Part shown: one piece after another, positions 6,035 through 34,620 of the stretch
How positions within the stretch are numbered: the first letter of the stretch is position 1
How the letters are laid out: each line of letters starts with the position of its first letter
Assembly: GCF_017355875.1 (NCBI RefSeq)
Contig: NZ_JAFEWC010000001.1
Location: 1,240,001-1,304,000, forward strand
Reading direction: 5' to 3'
DNA: 64,000 bases
Source: Aridibaculum aurantiacum
GTDB lineage: Bacteria > Bacteroidota > Bacteroidia > Chitinophagales > Chitinophagaceae
Notes under the pieces: model-generated
Database searches by the model: none
Told to the model about the DNA's origin: nothing
Seen by the model: the letters and a program-made list of their open reading frames with translations, nothing else
Program-made: the position numbers and the translations under genes

Positions 6035-6116
6035 TCTTTAAAGCATCTATTGATTTTCGCTGTTATTGCTTCCTCTTGCGGTATGTGTTCTACTCGTACC
6101 AGTTACCTTTGCCGCC

Positions 6117-8021
6117 ATGGATTATTTCAAGAGGTTACAGGAACTACTTCAAATAGAGAAGGCCGAAGACAGGAAAGCTTTTCAGCAACAAACCGAGTCG
6201 CTTCCAATACAGGCACGAAGGGAGAATGGTCTTGCCTGGTATCCTATTGCCATACGCGATACTGAGGTAGGAAGAGGAGATTATCTTACTGTAGAAGTAG
6301 AGCGAACTACACACACTGACATCATTCATCAATTGCGCTTTGGAATGAGCGCCGCAATGTTTAGTAATCACGATCCTAAGCGCGACAGGCTAGAAGGAAC
6401 CATTACCCATATCAGCGGCAACCGGCTGAAGCTAAGCCTGCGCACTGATGAATTACCGGATTGGAGCCGCAATGGTAAGTTGGGGATTGATGCCCTGTTT
6501 GACGACAACAGCTACGAAGAGATGGAACAGGCTCTTATATATGCGCCTGTAAAAGCACAACAGAAAGATGCTAATAAACTGGTAGAGATATTGGTAGGTG
6601 AGCGGCAACCTTCTTACAATGATGAAGCATTTACTTACGACAATAGAAGCTTAAATGCAGTTCAAAATTTAGCGGTGCAAAAAATATTATCTGCTAATGA
6701 ACTTGCCATTGTGCATGGACCTCCGGGAACGGGTAAAACAACCACACTTGTACAAGCGATCAAAGCGCTGGTAGAAAAAGATAAACAGCAAATATTGGTG
6801 GTGGCACCCAGCAACGCTGCTGTTGACCTGCTAACGGAAAAACTTAATGATACAGGTCTTAACGTAGTGCGTGTTGGAAACCCTGCAAGGGTAAATGAAA
6901 AGCAGTTGTCTCTTACGCTTGATAGCAAGATGGCTGCTCACCCGCAACACAAGGAAATAAAGCGGCTAAAAAAGCAGGCACGGGAGTACAGGGATATGGC
7001 GCATAAATACAAGCGCAGTTTTGGTCCCGCTGAAAGAGAGCAGCGAAAGGCATTGTTCAATGAGGCGCGTAACCTGAGTATAGAAGTAGAGCGTACAGAA
7101 CAATATATAGGTAAAGATGTACTGGATCGTGCGCAGGTAATAACAGCTACACTTGTAGGTGCTAATCATTATACTGTGCGGCAGCGCCATTACAAAACGG
7201 TGGTAATTGATGAAGCTGGCCAGGCATTAGAGCCTGCTTGTTGGATACCGATATTAAAGTCTGATAAACTTGTGATGGCGGGTGATCATTGCCAGTTGCC
7301 ACCCACTATAAAGAGTAATGAAGCAGCCAAAGGTGGACTTGCCATAACGCTGATGGAAAAGCTGGTCCAGCTGCATCCTGGATGCGTGACGCTTTTGCAG
7401 GAGCAATACCGGATGCACAAAACCATTATGCAGTTTAGCAGCCGTGAATTTTATAATGACCAGCTACAGGCACATCACACAGTGGCAGAAAAGCGGCTGT
7501 TGCAGGATGATCAGCCTTTGGTTTTTGTAGATACAGCGGGTACAGGTTATGAAGAAAAAATAGAAGGAAGCGGGATATCAAATCCTGAGGAGGCGGCGCT
7601 GCTTACAAGGCACCTGGCTCAGTATATTTCTGAATTACCACCAACTGCTCCAGTTAATGAGACGATAAGTGTTGGTGTTATTTCTCCATATCGCCACCAG
7701 GTGGAAGTGCTGAAAGAATTGGTGGCGGCTCATCCTGTTTTGAAGGCTCATGCAGCTGCCATTACAGTGAATACAATAGACAGTTTCCAGGGGCAGGAGC
7801 GGGATGTGATCTATATAAGCCTTGCCCGCAGCAACAGCGAGTCCAGCATTGGCTTTTTGTCTGAGATAAGACGAATGAATGTGGCGATGACCAGGGCACG
7901 TAATAAGCTGGTAATAATTGGTGACAGCGCCACCATATCCCAGTTCCCTTTTTATGCTGATTTTATTGCCTATGCCGAAGAGGCTGGTGGATATGTCAGT
8001 GCCTGGGAGTTTATGGAGTAA
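6117..8021 (+). CDS. Superfamily 1 DNA/RNA helicase (IGHMBP2/UPF1-like, AAA_11/AAA_12)
   Basis: 634 residues from the ATG at 6117 (MDYFKRLQELL); the open frame extends to 6066 but adds a hydrophobic leader unlikely for a helicase. Motif I GPPGTGKTT (Lys about 207), motif II VVIDEAGQALEP (Asp365-Glu366), motif III GDHCQLPPT, motif IV region LLQEQYRMH, motif V TVNTIDSFQGQERDV and motif VI NVAMTRARNKL are all present, giving a complete SF1B engine. An N-terminal OB-like region precedes motif I and a basic coiled insertion (about residues 280-350) lies between motifs I and II. It probably unwinds nucleic acid 5' to 3'. The stop codon is 7 bases before the first palindrome of the repeat array. Confidence 0.93.
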   Translation: MDYFKRLQELLQIEKAEDRKAFQQQTESLPIQARRENGLAWYPIAIRDTEVGRGDYLTVEVERTTHTDIIHQLRFGMSAAMFSNHDPKRDRLEGTITHISGNRLKLSLRTDELPDWSRNGKLGIDALFDDNSYEEMEQALIYAPVKAQQKDANKLVEILVGERQPSYNDEAFTYDNRSLNAVQNLAVQKILSANELAIVHGPPGTGKTTTLVQAIKALVEKDKQQILVVAPSNAAVDLLTEKLNDTGLNVVRVGNPARVNEKQLSLTLDSKMAAHPQHKEIKRLKKQAREYRDMAHKYKRSFGPAEREQRKALFNEARNLSIEVERTEQYIGKDVLDRAQVITATLVGANHYTVRQRHYKTVVIDEAGQALEPACWIPILKSDKLVMAGDHCQLPPTIKSNEAAKGGLAITLMEKLVQLHPGCVTLLQEQYRMHKTIMQFSSREFYNDQLQAHHTVAEKRLLQDDQPLVFVDTAGTGYEEKIEGSGISNPEEAALLTRHLAQYISELPPTAPVNETISVGVISPYRHQVEVLKELVAAHPVLKAHAAAITVNTIDSFQGQERDVIYISLARSNSESSIGFLSEIRRMNVAMTRARNKLVIIGDSATISQFPFYADFIAYAEEAGGYVSAWEFME

Positions 8022-8028
8022 GTCTTCT

Positions 8029-8646
8029 GTCACCCCGACGCAGGAGGGGTCTCCAGCCTTGAAACATCTGTGCTAGCATCTGAAGGTTTTATGAGATGCC
8101 TCGTGCCTCGGCATGACAGGCTACAAGTGTCATCCCGACGAAGGAGGGATCCCCAGTCTTTAACATTTTTACTAGCATCTGAAGATTTTATGAGATTCCT
8201 CGTGTCTCTGCATGACAAGCCAATGATGTGTCATCCCGACGAAGGAGGGATCCCCCGCCACATGATGTTTCATGTAGCAACTATAATGTTGATGAGATGC
8301 CTCGTCCCTCGGCATGACAGGCTTAGAATGTCATCCCGACGAAGGAGGGATCCCCAGCCGCATAATGTTTAATGTAGCAACTGAAATGTGATGAGATGCC
8401 TCGTGCCTCGGCATGACAGGCTTAGAATGTCATCCCGACGAAGGAGGGATCCTCAGTCTTTAACATCTTTACTAGCATCTGAAGATTTTATGAGATGCCT
8501 CGTGCCTCGGCATGACAAGCCTATGATGTGTCATCCCGACGTAGGAGGGTTCCCTGTCATACTACATGCTACAACCTCAATATTTATTAGATGCCTCGTG
8601 CCTCGGCATGACAGGCATAGAATGTCATCCCGACGAAGGAGGGATC
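8029..8646. repeat. Array of paired palindromes, REPIN-like (13 REP-like units, about 100-base period)
   Basis: Two 23-base units alternate. Unit B (core ATCCCGACGAAGGAGGGAT) occurs at 8029-8051, 8129-8151, 8230-8252, 8330-8352, 8429-8451, 8530-8552 and 8624-8646. Unit A (core ATGCCTCGTGCCTCGGCAT) occurs at 8095-8117, 8194-8216, 8296-8318, 8395-8417, 8494-8516 and 8590-8612. Each core is itself an imperfect hairpin (ATCCC/GGGAT; ATGCC/GGCAT). The reverse complement of A matches B closely, including GTCAT at the outer end, so each A-B pair separated by about 12 bases is a larger inverted repeat. This is the layout of REPINs spread by REP-associated tyrosine transposases. Longer gaps (about 40 bases) fall into two sequence classes, suggesting tandem duplication of multi-unit blocks. 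No transposase is in the window. Confidence 0.85.
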
Positions 8647-8699
8647 TACTGCACCCACTAGGGTATAAATATTGCTTCTGGTTGAAAAACATCTCTCAT

Positions 8700-10232
8700 A
8701 TGTCACTGCTGGGTGGAGTAATTAAGAAGGCTATCGATTTTAATGGGTTCATATCAAGTGAACCTAATCCATATAAGGCGCAGAAGAAGGTACTAATGCA
8801 ATTGTTGAAAAAGGCGCGGCTGACTGCTTTCGGCATGCATCACAAGTTTGGAAGTATTCTTAAAAGCGATAACCCGGTGGCTGCATTCCAGCAGAATGTG
8901 CCGGTGTTTGATTACGATACTTTGTATGAACAATGGTGGCATTATCTGCTAAAGGGACATCAGAATATTACATGGCCTGGTGGGCAGGATTATTTCGCCC
9001 TTAGCAGTGGTACTACCAGCAATAAAAAATATATCCCTGTTACCAAAGACATGATCGCTTCTATCAAAAAAGCGGGGATGCAGCAAGTGCTAAGCCTGAA
9101 GAACTTCGATCTTTCAAATGATTTTTTCGACAAGGATATTTTGATGTTGGGCAGCAGCACACACCTGATAGAATTGGAAGATCATTATGAAGGAGAAATA
9201 AGTGGGATAAGTGCTGCAAATATTCCCGGATGGTTTCATAAATTTTATAAACCAGGCATAGAGATAGCATCCATAGAAAACTGGGATGAAAAGGTGCGGC
9301 GGATCGCGGAGGAAGCACCAAAGTGGGATGTAGGCAGTATCTCCGGTATCCCTTCCTGGGTAGAGCTGATGCTGAAAGAGATAATTGCTCATAACAACCT
9401 GGAGACGATCCATGACATCTGGCCCAACCTGCACGTATATACATCTGGCGGTGTAGCCTTTGAGCCATATAGAAAAAGTATGGAGAAGTTGCTGGCCAGG
9501 CCATTGATCTACATCGATACCTACCTGGCTTCGGAAGGTTACCTGGCTACGCAAAAACGGCCAGATACCAACTCAATGGCGCTCATTGTAAACAATGGTA
9601 TCTTTTTCGAATTTGTACCTTTTGAAGAAGAAAATATAGATGATGACGGAAGAGTAAAGCAAGGCGTAAAAGTGCTTACGCTAGAGCAGGCGGAAGAGAA
9701 TAAAGAATATGTACTGTTGATCTCTACAGTTTCGGGCGCATGGCGATATATGATAGGCGATACAGTGATCATTACTGATAAAGAAAGATCTGAAATACGC
9801 ATCAGCGGTCGCACCAAGCATTACCTAAATGTAGTAGGCGAACAATTATCTGTTCAAAAAATGAATATGGCCATTGAAAAACTGGAAGAGGCATTTGACC
9901 TGGAGATTAATGAATTTACAGCTTCAACAGTTTTTAAGGATGAACAGTTTGTAATGAAATTCATTGTTGGTACTGATAAGGAAATAGATACTGCAAGGGC
10001 AGCTGAAGTAGTTGATACTGAATTGTGCAACAACAATAAGAACTACCAGGTAGCACGGACCAAAGCACTTAAAAAATTAGAAGTAGAAGCTGTACCAGTA
10101 GAGCGTTTTTACAGTTGGAGCGAAGAGTTTAAAAAGTTAGGAGGACAAGCAAAAATCCCTCGTGTAATGAAGGAGGAAGAGTTTTGGGACTTCAGGAACT
10201 ATGTACTGGAAAAACAGCCGGTTGGGCAATAG
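8700..10232 (+). CDS. GH3 auxin-responsive promoter family protein (acyl-adenylate ligase fold)
   Basis: 510 residues from the ATG at 8700 (MSLLGGVIKKAIDF). The frame runs open upstream through the palindrome array, but that extension only encodes repeat-derived peptides. Features: ATP-binding loop ALSSGTTSNKKYIPVT (about residue 100), a central segment with YTSGGVAFEPYRKSMEKLL, LASEGYLATQ, and the C-terminal adenylation-type motif RISGRTKHYLNVVGEQLS. The family includes plant GH3 acyl-acid amido synthetases; bacterial members are common in Bacteroidota with unknown substrates, so an ATP-dependent amide-forming role is inference. Length is close to the usual size. The region after the stop is AT-rich and low in complexity. 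Confidence 0.9.
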   Translation: MSLLGGVIKKAIDFNGFISSEPNPYKAQKKVLMQLLKKARLTAFGMHHKFGSILKSDNPVAAFQQNVPVFDYDTLYEQWWHYLLKGHQNITWPGGQDYFALSSGTTSNKKYIPVTKDMIASIKKAGMQQVLSLKNFDLSNDFFDKDILMLGSSTHLIELEDHYEGEISGISAANIPGWFHKFYKPGIEIASIENWDEKVRRIAEEAPKWDVGSISGIPSWVELMLKEIIAHNNLETIHDIWPNLHVYTSGGVAFEPYRKSMEKLLARPLIYIDTYLASEGYLATQKRPDTNSMALIVNNGIFFEFVPFEEENIDDDGRVKQGVKVLTLEQAEENKEYVLLISTVSGAWRYMIGDTVIITDKERSEIRISGRTKHYLNVVGEQLSVQKMNMAIEKLEEAFDLEINEFTASTVFKDEQFVMKFIVGTDKEIDTARAAEVVDTELCNNNKNYQVARTKALKKLEVEAVPVERFYSWSEEFKKLGGQAKIPRVMKEEEFWDFRNYVLEKQPVGQ

Positions 10233-10393: not shown

Positions 10394-11068
10394 TTACAGC
10401 TCCTCCTCTTTCTTCATCTCCTCATTTTTTTGCTCAAGCATTTTTTCTTCCCAAAGTTTTACTTGTTCTACTATCACGTCAGGTGAAAGGTAAAGGCGTG
10501 ATATCTTGTCTTTATAAGCTTTTGGCAGGTCAGCATGATCGAGTATGAAACGTTTGGTGGTAACGATATAATTTCCCATTCCTCTTTCTACAGCTAATGA
10601 GTCGGCCATCATTTCTGCATGCTTCACAAACTTAGATGAAGTATAATACCTGTAGCCAAAGGTGATCATTTTCACATTGCTCATTCCTTCATAATCAAGT
10701 ATGTGACCTAGTTCATGACCAATCCAGCCTATCATTACATTGTCCGGTATTTCCAGTATCGGTAAAATGGAAGAGATCAACCTGAACTCTGTGCTGATAT
10801 TAATACGGTAGCGGCGGTTCTTTCTTCGTTGCAAAAGCGTCCTGAACACTGGCTGCGCCTGCATAACAGAAGAAGTAAGCTTCGGCTTCATAATAAAGCT
10901 GATGTTGGTTTGCTTCAACTCTGGAAAGAATGATAATGCTGTAAGCACATTTTTTTCTACCGCGGGGGGTATTGTTTTATTGGTAGCAAATTGCTTGAGA
11001 TAGCCTGCAACTTGTCCATTGGTATCCATTGTTTGTAATGATATCATAAGTGCTATGAGCAACTTCAT
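10394..11068 (-). CDS. Secreted HExxH zinc metallopeptidase, family unassigned
   Basis: 224 residues. The N-terminus (MKLLIALMISLQTMDTNGQ) looks like a signal peptide with little positive charge. GHELGHILDYE (His118, Glu119, His122) is a zincin active-site helix. Downstream HAEMMADSLAVE (about 150-161) supplies an Asp/Glu-rich third-ligand helix like that of M48-type or related gluzincins. The C-terminus is rich in Glu and Lys (EEKMLEQKNEEMKKEEEL). It stands alone with about 160 non-coding bases upstream. The catalytic motif is clear; the substrate is unknown. Confidence 0.75.
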   Translation of the reverse strand: MKLLIALMISLQTMDTNGQVAGYLKQFATNKTIPPAVEKNVLTALSFFPELKQTNISFIMKPKLTSSVMQAQPVFRTLLQRRKNRRYRINISTEFRLISSILPILEIPDNVMIGWIGHELGHILDYEGMSNVKMITFGYRYYTSSKFVKHAEMMADSLAVERGMGNYIVTTKRFILDHADLPKAYKDKISRLYLSPDVIVEQVKLWEEKMLEQKNEEMKKEEEL

Positions 11069-34549: not shown

Positions 34550-34558
34550 AGAGACTTT

Positions 34559-34620
34559 GTGGTTCCTGGTTCCTGGTTCCGGAATGTGGTTTCTGGTTTC
34601 TAGTTCCTGGTTTTTGGTTA
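34559..34620. repeat. Low-complexity GGTTCCT-type tract
   Basis: GGTTCCTGGTTCCTGGTTCC and following TGGTTTCTGGTTTCTAGTTC words, period about 7 bases, between convergent genes. It is similar in style to the tract at 27941-28160. Confidence 0.75.

Follow-up and report, generated by a model that had tools for sequence, protein, structure and literature searches.

The closest described relatives of the repeats reported here are the CGTC-tagged REPs of Di Nocera et al. (2013; PMC3733652), in which, according to the available text of that paper, CGTC is often changed to TGTC or CCTC. These REPs form head-to-head dimers and heterodimers, occur in Bacteroidetes and are defined by a stem of 8-9 bp starting with complementary A,T and a loop of 4-5 nt; most of them carry a short CCA-like unpaired tail (PMC3733652). 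In the same text, clusters are described as rare outside Neisseriae and Wolbachia, the dRS3 elements of Neisseria are listed as CGTC-1 REPs, and neither a transposase partner nor a link to Y1 enzymes is reported (PMC3733652).

The array and its units

In the window, that is, the whole stretch of 64,000 nucleotides of the Aridibaculum aurantiacum genome that was analyzed, 13 REP units (seven forward B and six reverse A) were identified between a helicase gene and a GH3-family gene:

6066..8021, plus strand: AAA_11/AAA_12 helicase gene, flanking; stop at 8021, 6 bp before the first unit
8028..8646, unstranded: whole array of 13 TGTC-tagged REP units, six inverted B-A pairs (85-91 bp each) and one B
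8028..8051, plus strand: B unit 1 (2 mismatches)
8095..8118, minus strand: A unit 1
8128..8151, plus strand: B unit 2
8194..8217, minus strand: A unit 2 (degenerate)
8229..8252, plus strand: B unit 3
8296..8319, minus strand: A unit 3
8329..8352, plus strand: B unit 4
8395..8418, minus strand: A unit 4
8428..8451, plus strand: B unit 5
8494..8517, minus strand: A unit 5
8529..8552, plus strand: B unit 6 (1 mismatch)
8590..8613, minus strand: A unit 6
8623..8646, plus strand: B unit 7 (unpaired)
8700..10232, plus strand: GH3-family gene, flanking; genus-conserved part

Forward B units read TGTCATCCCGACGAAGGAGGGATC and reverse A units read TGTCATGCCGAGGCACGAGGCATC on the minus strand, and both fit the common pattern TGTCATNCCGANGNANGAGGNATC. 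The window holds 13 matches at up to three mismatches; over 100 dinucleotide shuffles the mean was 0.07, and no shuffle attained 13. The array of 13 palindromic units described in the initial annotation is thus real, and it is a known kind of repeat; its limits, given as 8029-8646 with 23-base units, were shifted to a start at 8028, because the unit is 24 bp long with a leading T. The six consecutive pairs, the extra B unit and the two classes of spacer were also recovered, with gaps alternating between 37-43 bp (B to A) and 9-11 bp (A to B), and a period of ~100 bp was detected by TRF. Mean pairwise identity is 0.94 within the A units and likewise within the B units; among the six B-A spacers it averages only 0.58 (range 0.35-0.95).

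A longer GH3 open reading frame, from 8388, reads through the array. Just upstream of the GH3 start, at 8662-8677, lies GGTATAAATATTGCTT, which is nearly conserved in eight same-genus loci and likely represents a promoter or leader; the sequence further upstream mostly differs among these loci, and the array ends 15 bp before this element. In the seven other same-genus loci read, the 1.5 kb preceding the GH3 orthologue does not include the helicase, and no cleanly vacant counterpart of the site of the window's array was therefore found. Upstream of the orthologue, one gene is common to L054 and L056 and another to L051 and L057. Elsewhere in the window, at 34556-34619, a short tandem repeat with the unit TTTCTGGTTCCTGG resembles a TTCCTGGTTTC-rich spacer adjoining units in L047.

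The unit pattern was counted throughout the 4.86-Mb genome (G000), giving 33 + 38 = 71 matches at up to three mismatches, versus 1 + 0 for a reversed-pattern control. By our own grouping they fall in about 19 places, with the highest count (13) in the window's array and 10 and 9 in the next two, and many form inverted pairs, in agreement with the REPIN-like form and the many copies that had been proposed. At G000:C3:544917-545117 (L043), a separate small array is built of two alternating components, a related hairpin that is close to TGTCATGCTGAGGAACGAAGCATC and units like TGTCATGCCGACGGCAGGAGGCA. The suggestion that such an array is unusual in Bacteroidota was not upheld: CGTC-type REPs had been reported there in 2013, as the available text of that paper states (PMC3733652), and the unit was found at up to one mismatch in 39 of 395 sampled genomes of the same phylum. 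Among the matches listed in a scan of a genome collection (at least 120 stretches), all are from Bacteroidota, the carriers including Spirosoma, Pinibacter, Larkinella, Fibrella and a Flavobacteriaceae MAG. In a set of 59 genomes, 18 (the window's included) have any match at up to two mismatches, with 43-152 matches in G000, G003, G004, G018, G028 and G035, 9 and 14 in G043 and G054, and 0-3 in the rest. The arrays on contigs C74, C95, C60 and C110 of G004 lie at or near contig ends; draft assemblies thus probably collapse such arrays, and true copy numbers would be higher. The only match in the viral collection is a single unit pair at 10663-10733 of IMG/VR contig L153, adjoining, by eye, a clpB-like gene; this is probably chromosomal DNA next to a prophage.

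The proposal that the pairs fold better than shuffled sequence held for some of the six B-A pairs and failed for others, since 7, 158, 1, 16, 0 and 86 of 200 shuffles, respectively, folded at least as well; two single units, with 61 and 33 of 200 shuffles at least as good, were not unusual. Support for the hairpin comes from covariation, not from folding energy alone, in a set of 370 units (144 distinct) from eight unit-rich genomes, with G059 and G060 pooled. Positions 7 and 21 form a Watson-Crick pair in 348 of the 370 units (within-group shuffles: mean 263, maximum 285), occurring as C-G, G-C and T-A, and positions 12 and 16 do so in 350 (mean 189, maximum 217), as C-G and G-C. These four positions were left free by the search pattern, as was position 13, which is G in 345 of 370 units. 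Positions 10/18 are G/A and positions 11/17 are A/G in 350 units each, and position 15 is mostly A; all of these were fixed in the pattern (up to two mismatches) and are not independent evidence. The stem can be read as five Watson-Crick pairs (ATNCC/GGNAT) followed by tandem G.A/A.G and the covarying pair 12-16, closed by a GNA loop of 3 nt. A GNA triloop on tandem G.A pairs is a stable arrangement in single-stranded DNA, and a DNA hairpin is for this reason favoured as the form that would be recognized. In the window's genome, each of the 17 close pairs that were counted is heterodimeric at both positions 7 and 12, where re-pairing expects 9.2 and none of 1000 trials reached 17. Heterodimers also make up 41 of 43 pairs in G004 at position 12 and 21 of 22 in G028 at position 7; no heterodimer excess was seen in the pairs of 26-R-25 or Pinibacter.

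The units carry an unpaired TGTC tag before the stem, first seen on reading the window and then made part of the search pattern, and the first stem pairs, also fixed in the pattern, are A-T and T-A. The bases following the array units vary (e.g., cc or tcc), and CCA is found in many other hairpins beside GIY-YIG genes (see below). The window's units are assigned to the CGTC/TGTC-tagged REP superfamily.

A GIY-YIG gene beside the hairpins

Clustering of 838 open reading frames around 120 unit-bearing stretches revealed a small GIY-YIG gene in six stretches; an earlier unbiased clustering of 593 frames around units in six genomes did not list this family. Among the families listed, no other gene family recurring beside units stood out by eye. 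In relatives, the GIY-YIG gene is located within one pair of units or has a pair on either side, occupying a unit-to-unit gap of 335 bp in G028, 574 bp in Chitinophagaceae bacterium 26-R-25 and 583 bp in Pinibacter soli. Units lie on both sides of the gene also in Spirosoma, a Cytophagales MAG and a Flavobacteriaceae MAG (in L236, on the side covered), and the congener G004 has a broken copy with units on one side. The candidate partner is thus a gene for a single-domain GIY-YIG nuclease of ~100 aa. Pfam GIY-YIG was matched by all four proteins scanned (50.7-62.3 bits), and NCBIfam gave no match above cut-off. In nine proteins Y, G, R30, E and N88 are invariant and match the GIY-YIG active site, of which we take them to be the residues. 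The nearest solved structures by sequence are of UPF0213 (PDB 1zg2 and 1ywl, E 8e-6 and 0.0024). No match to the protein was found in the phage collection and carriage by phages was rejected, the viral collection offering only the one contig with one unit pair; the protein had a single weak match to an uncharacterized phage family (E 4e-5). The inner ends of short pairs resemble the ends of the GIY gap in 26-R-25 and Pinibacter (5.4-6.7 of 8 bases versus 2.5-2.9 in controls), as expected for internal-deletion derivatives; the resemblance is weak in G028 (3.5 and 4.5 versus 2.7).

The association was examined in 34 Chitinophagales genomes, where GIY genes chosen by similarity to a nine-protein profile gave 57 matches, divided into close (at least 57 bits) and distant (53 bits or less). 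At least 8 of the 34 genomes were already known to be unit-rich, and the profile was itself built from GIY genes beside units; examples from the genome collection that had been found via units were excluded from the counts. Also excluded were, at contig edges, the close gene L313 and the distant genes L316, L320 and L321, as well as G030:C1:1534704 and G003:C11:1120324, the latter being one of 27 rows and a repeat of L329. A tagged hairpin was scored as C, T or A followed by GTC and then A...T with at least five consecutive outer pairs; this rule, which like the limit of 400 bp was set after the first GIY examples, misses CCTC tags such as those seen by eye in L337. Background hairpin density per kb is 0.39 at GH3 loci, 0.20 at Y1 loci and 0.34 in the window including the array.

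A tagged hairpin lies within 400 bp of 13 of the 18 testable close genes, on both sides in 7, versus 2 and 0 of the 34 testable distant genes (p=1.1e-6 for any side, p=2.4e-4 for both). GH3 control loci have one on any side in 5 of 29 cases and on both sides in 1 of 29, at least two of them (L050 and L073) adjoining unit arrays (p=2.4e-4 and p=3e-3 against the close genes); shuffled sequence was two-sided in 8 of 720. Homologues in the plasmid collection were two-sided in 13 and had a hairpin on any side in 16 of 18 (two-sided against GH3, p=7e-7), these being 18 of 32 records, the other 14 mostly near-duplicates by organism name. The set includes three Sphingobium, three Shinella, two Rhizobium and two Sinorhizobium and is therefore not 18 independent cases, and some of the 2-5 Mb 'plasmid' records are probably chromosomes. 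The two-sided loci, 12 of 13 with near-identical hairpins on both sides, belong to Spirosoma, Planktothrix, three Shinella, one Rhizobium, Neorhizobium, Azospirillum, three Sphingobium, an Aeromonas-labelled record and a gonococcal record. One-sided hairpins were found in S. meliloti, Photobacterium and R. tumorigenes; R. tumorigenes has just one, which may be there by chance. The hairpin varies by genome, as TGTCATCCCGAGGAACGAGGGATC, CGTCATTGCGAGGCACGAAGCAATC, CGTCATCCTGAACTCGTTGCAGGATC and others. Several of the genera or species concerned are among the CGTC carriers of 2013, as given in the available text (PMC3733652).

No tagged hairpin was found within 400 bp on either side of 5 of the 18 close genes and 2 of the 18 plasmid-set genes, the latter two, from Sinorhizobium sp. 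C101 and N. aromaticivorans, having matching repeats of another kind on each side. Such repeats flank five of the seven hairpin-less genes (L309, L311, L323, L337 and L338) in a search that had no control; L314 has neither tagged hairpins nor other matching repeats. Distant GIY-YIG genes without tagged hairpins also occur in tandem pairs or triplets (G003:C11:1119607-1120563, G016:C20:61063-61619, G016:C42:66835-67411 and G000:C1:2141907-2142511), which are assigned to a different GIY clade. The pairing of GIY-YIG genes with CGTC REPs appears to be clade-specific and cross-phylum, and is the interesting by-product of this analysis.

A link of GIY-YIG with REP, dRS3 or RAYT was not found in the literature searched, for RAYT and for palindromes in general as judged from the titles listed, most subscription papers and all bioRxiv preprints lying outside it. 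'GIY' is absent from the available main text of Di Nocera et al. (2013; PMC3733652), of RepRanger (2025; PMC12306157) and of the Coxiella MITE paper (PMC5896051), and the available part of a Moraxella pangenome list, which contains both GIY-YIG and 'extragenic palindrom', makes no link between them.

Occupied and vacant sites

In Azospirillum lipoferum the GIY gene lies between sufB and sufC with a hairpin pair on each side, and this site is vacant in all four congeners read. At one site of Sphingobium sp., strain TomTYG46 has the gene between inverted CGTCACCCCGGG... hairpins, TomTYG74 has what we interpret as a collapsed pair, and TomTYG72 and TomTYG65 lack both gene and pair. Sinorhizobium sp. 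C101 lacks the GIY gene at the S. meliloti site and retains an imperfect hairpin.

For the pairs without a gene, flanks were typed at 7 of 13 loci and aligned at three of those seven, in 26-R-25 (G018), Pinibacter aurantiacus (G059) and P. soli (G060). Two of the aligned loci carry the insert in G018 and G059 and lack it in G060; the third carries it only in G018, the other two genomes having unlike sequence there. The pairs thus come and go as discrete inserts, the direction (gain or loss) at the first two being not proven, and no target duplication was resolved at the insertion sites. In these three genomes the unit pair lies midway in an element of ~197 bp whose ends, ATGTCGTTTAGTTAAGC, are terminal inverted repeats of its own, beyond the REP pair. 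The moving unit is thus a MITE that another transposase could move. One such MITE, with one unit pair inside, is found at G060:C12:10854-11050. An autonomous copy with the same ends was considered and rejected, as facing ends, paired by eye from a list at up to two mismatches, are 178-254 bp apart.

The window's genome (100% complete, five contigs) contains no cognate GIY gene that we could find. Its three GIY matches (E<=1e-5) are all distant (36 bits or less) and none of the three has flanking hairpins, so that the array is orphaned, without a detectable resident cognate nuclease. GIY remnants inside the window's own unit loci were also rejected (best tblastn E 0.08). The broken cognate gene beside units in the congener G004 fits loss.

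Proposed origin and relation to known systems

The window's array is probably a local pile-up of non-autonomous REPIN-like TGTC REP pairs, in a family whose parent was most likely a GIY-YIG gene within one or more hairpin pairs. This mobile parent would be a small element consisting of a single-domain GIY-YIG gene with the same hairpins around it, arranged as one inverted pair or as two pairs, and the gene-less pairs would derive from it as REPINs do from RAYT elements. In DNA that is single-stranded or forms a cruciform, the unit would fold into a small hairpin next to its unpaired TGTC tag. The GIY-YIG enzyme would recognize this structure and cut there, and repair or replication could then copy or move the element to another intergenic site. 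Arrays could grow by repeated insertion next to existing units together with unequal recombination. The analysis shows a family resemblance, the dispersal and covariation of the units, their association with GIY genes in relatives, and sites both occupied and vacant; mobilization by the GIY nuclease, the cutting of hairpins and every other biochemical step are inferred. The window's array itself may be a relic, or have been mobilized in trans by an enzyme since lost; alternatively, it may have grown by recombination only or been moved by another protein. As for the superfamily at large, we lean slightly towards the view that CGTC/TGTC REPs, dRS3 included, are the ends of widespread minimal mobile elements that encode nothing but a structure-specific GIY-YIG nuclease of a single domain, which co-evolves with its hairpin, and that REP dimers and arrays are their non-autonomous offspring.

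The GIY-YIG gene could instead be a passenger in REP-rich DNA, or a homing endonuclease residing in it or targeting REPs, with the REPs spread by another enzyme. REPs are reported to be landing sites of insertion elements (PMC1525189), the 197-bp MITE of the Pinibacter group has terminal repeats of its own, and some genomes with arrays, the window's among them, have no close GIY gene. Against this reading, the hairpin is at least 80% the same on both sides at 19 of the 20 two-sided loci of both sets, and the variant differs between GIY genes. The gene also lies inside an inverted pair of nearest hairpins at 14 of these 20 loci, with the opposite facing at four and a parallel arrangement at two (p=3e-5 against a chance of one in four, the loci being treated as independent, which they are not quite). 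Moreover, the families listed from the two clusterings (593 frames, six genomes; 838 frames, 120 stretches) included, as judged by eye, no conspicuous nuclease or transposase family beside the units other than the GIY family, present in six stretches. We regard this alternative as unlikely.

That the units serve the host as regulatory or structural elements (terminators, mRNA stabilizers or gyrase sites), kept by selection and multiplied by slippage and recombination only, is improbable: their conservation above that of the spacers and the start of the array 6 bp past the helicase stop would fit, but the distribution is patchy (18 of 59 genomes at up to two mismatches), sites are occupied or vacant, and in relatives the units enclose a nuclease gene.

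RAYT transposases (Y1, HUH-type), proposed as drivers in the initial annotation, were rejected. Two of the five Y1/RAYT-like genes of the window's genome, L034 and L035, resemble class-2 TnpA-REP proteins, whereas L031-L033 carry Y---Q--HH, the motif of subclass 1.2 (classes according to the available text of PMC6006769). The five genes and the REPIN-like form of the pairs speak for such a driver, but the tag is TGTC and not GTAG, no unit at up to four mismatches lies in the ~3.3-kb stretches around any of the five genes, and units are likewise absent from all 11 Y1 stretches of five unit-rich relatives. In addition, 44 of 59 genomes, mostly unit-poor ones, contain Y1 genes, and the Y1 frames of the unit-rich relatives (G003 excluded), as classified by motif, differ in type between genomes. 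RAYT-driven REPINs are thus quite improbable here. L034 (G000:C1 about 2798319) and L035 (G000:C1 about 2719779) are flanked by a different repeat of their own, GGTTGTTCAAGGTGTTTAAGCG...CACCTTGAACTT, with further partial copies nearby, and are assigned with it to a second, RAYT-type repeat system in this genome. A search of the plasmid collection with the L034 protein gave five records. In Neisseria, dRS3 is a target of IS110-like enzymes. An IS110-type recombinase acting on the units, to which the listing of dRS3 as CGTC-1 REPs (PMC3733652) lends some appeal, is extremely improbable and was rejected, because IS110 was found in only four of eight unit-rich genomes, in one as a broken frame, and not in the window's.

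If the GIY-YIG reading is true, there would be a REP system parallel to RAYT/GTAG and built on an unrelated enzyme, the question of the mover of CGTC REPs, left open in 2013, would be answered, and another nuclease superfamily would join the movers of palindromic repeats. Genes now annotated only as 'GIY-YIG nuclease family protein' would also gain a role. Through the link to one small nuclease, the question of the mover can be put to a direct test that needs a ~100-aa protein and a hairpin oligonucleotide.

Compared with the CGTC REP superfamily, the units share the TGTC/CGTC tag, the A-T and T-A first pairs, head-to-head dimers and heterodimers, presence in Bacteroidetes and the lack of a Y1 transposase link; they differ in a loop best drawn with 3 nt and tandem G.A pairs, in their large alternating arrays, and in the proposed GIY-YIG partner, none being named in the available text of the 2013 paper (PMC3733652). 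With the REPIN/RAYT system (REPtron, GTAG REPs) they have in common inverted REP pairs proposed to derive from an element with a small nuclease gene, whereas the tag here is TGTC and not GTAG and the candidate enzyme is GIY-YIG and not HUH Y1. Neisserial dRS3 and mosaic arrays likewise consist of CGTC-tagged palindromes with variable spacers, in the gonococcal record with the GIY-YIG gene among 16 dRS3-type hairpins within 3.3 kb, and differ in stem sequence and host phylum. Finally, the candidate nuclease shares with the UPF0213 proteins (PDB 1zg2 and 1ywl) a single GIY-YIG domain and a length of ~100 aa.
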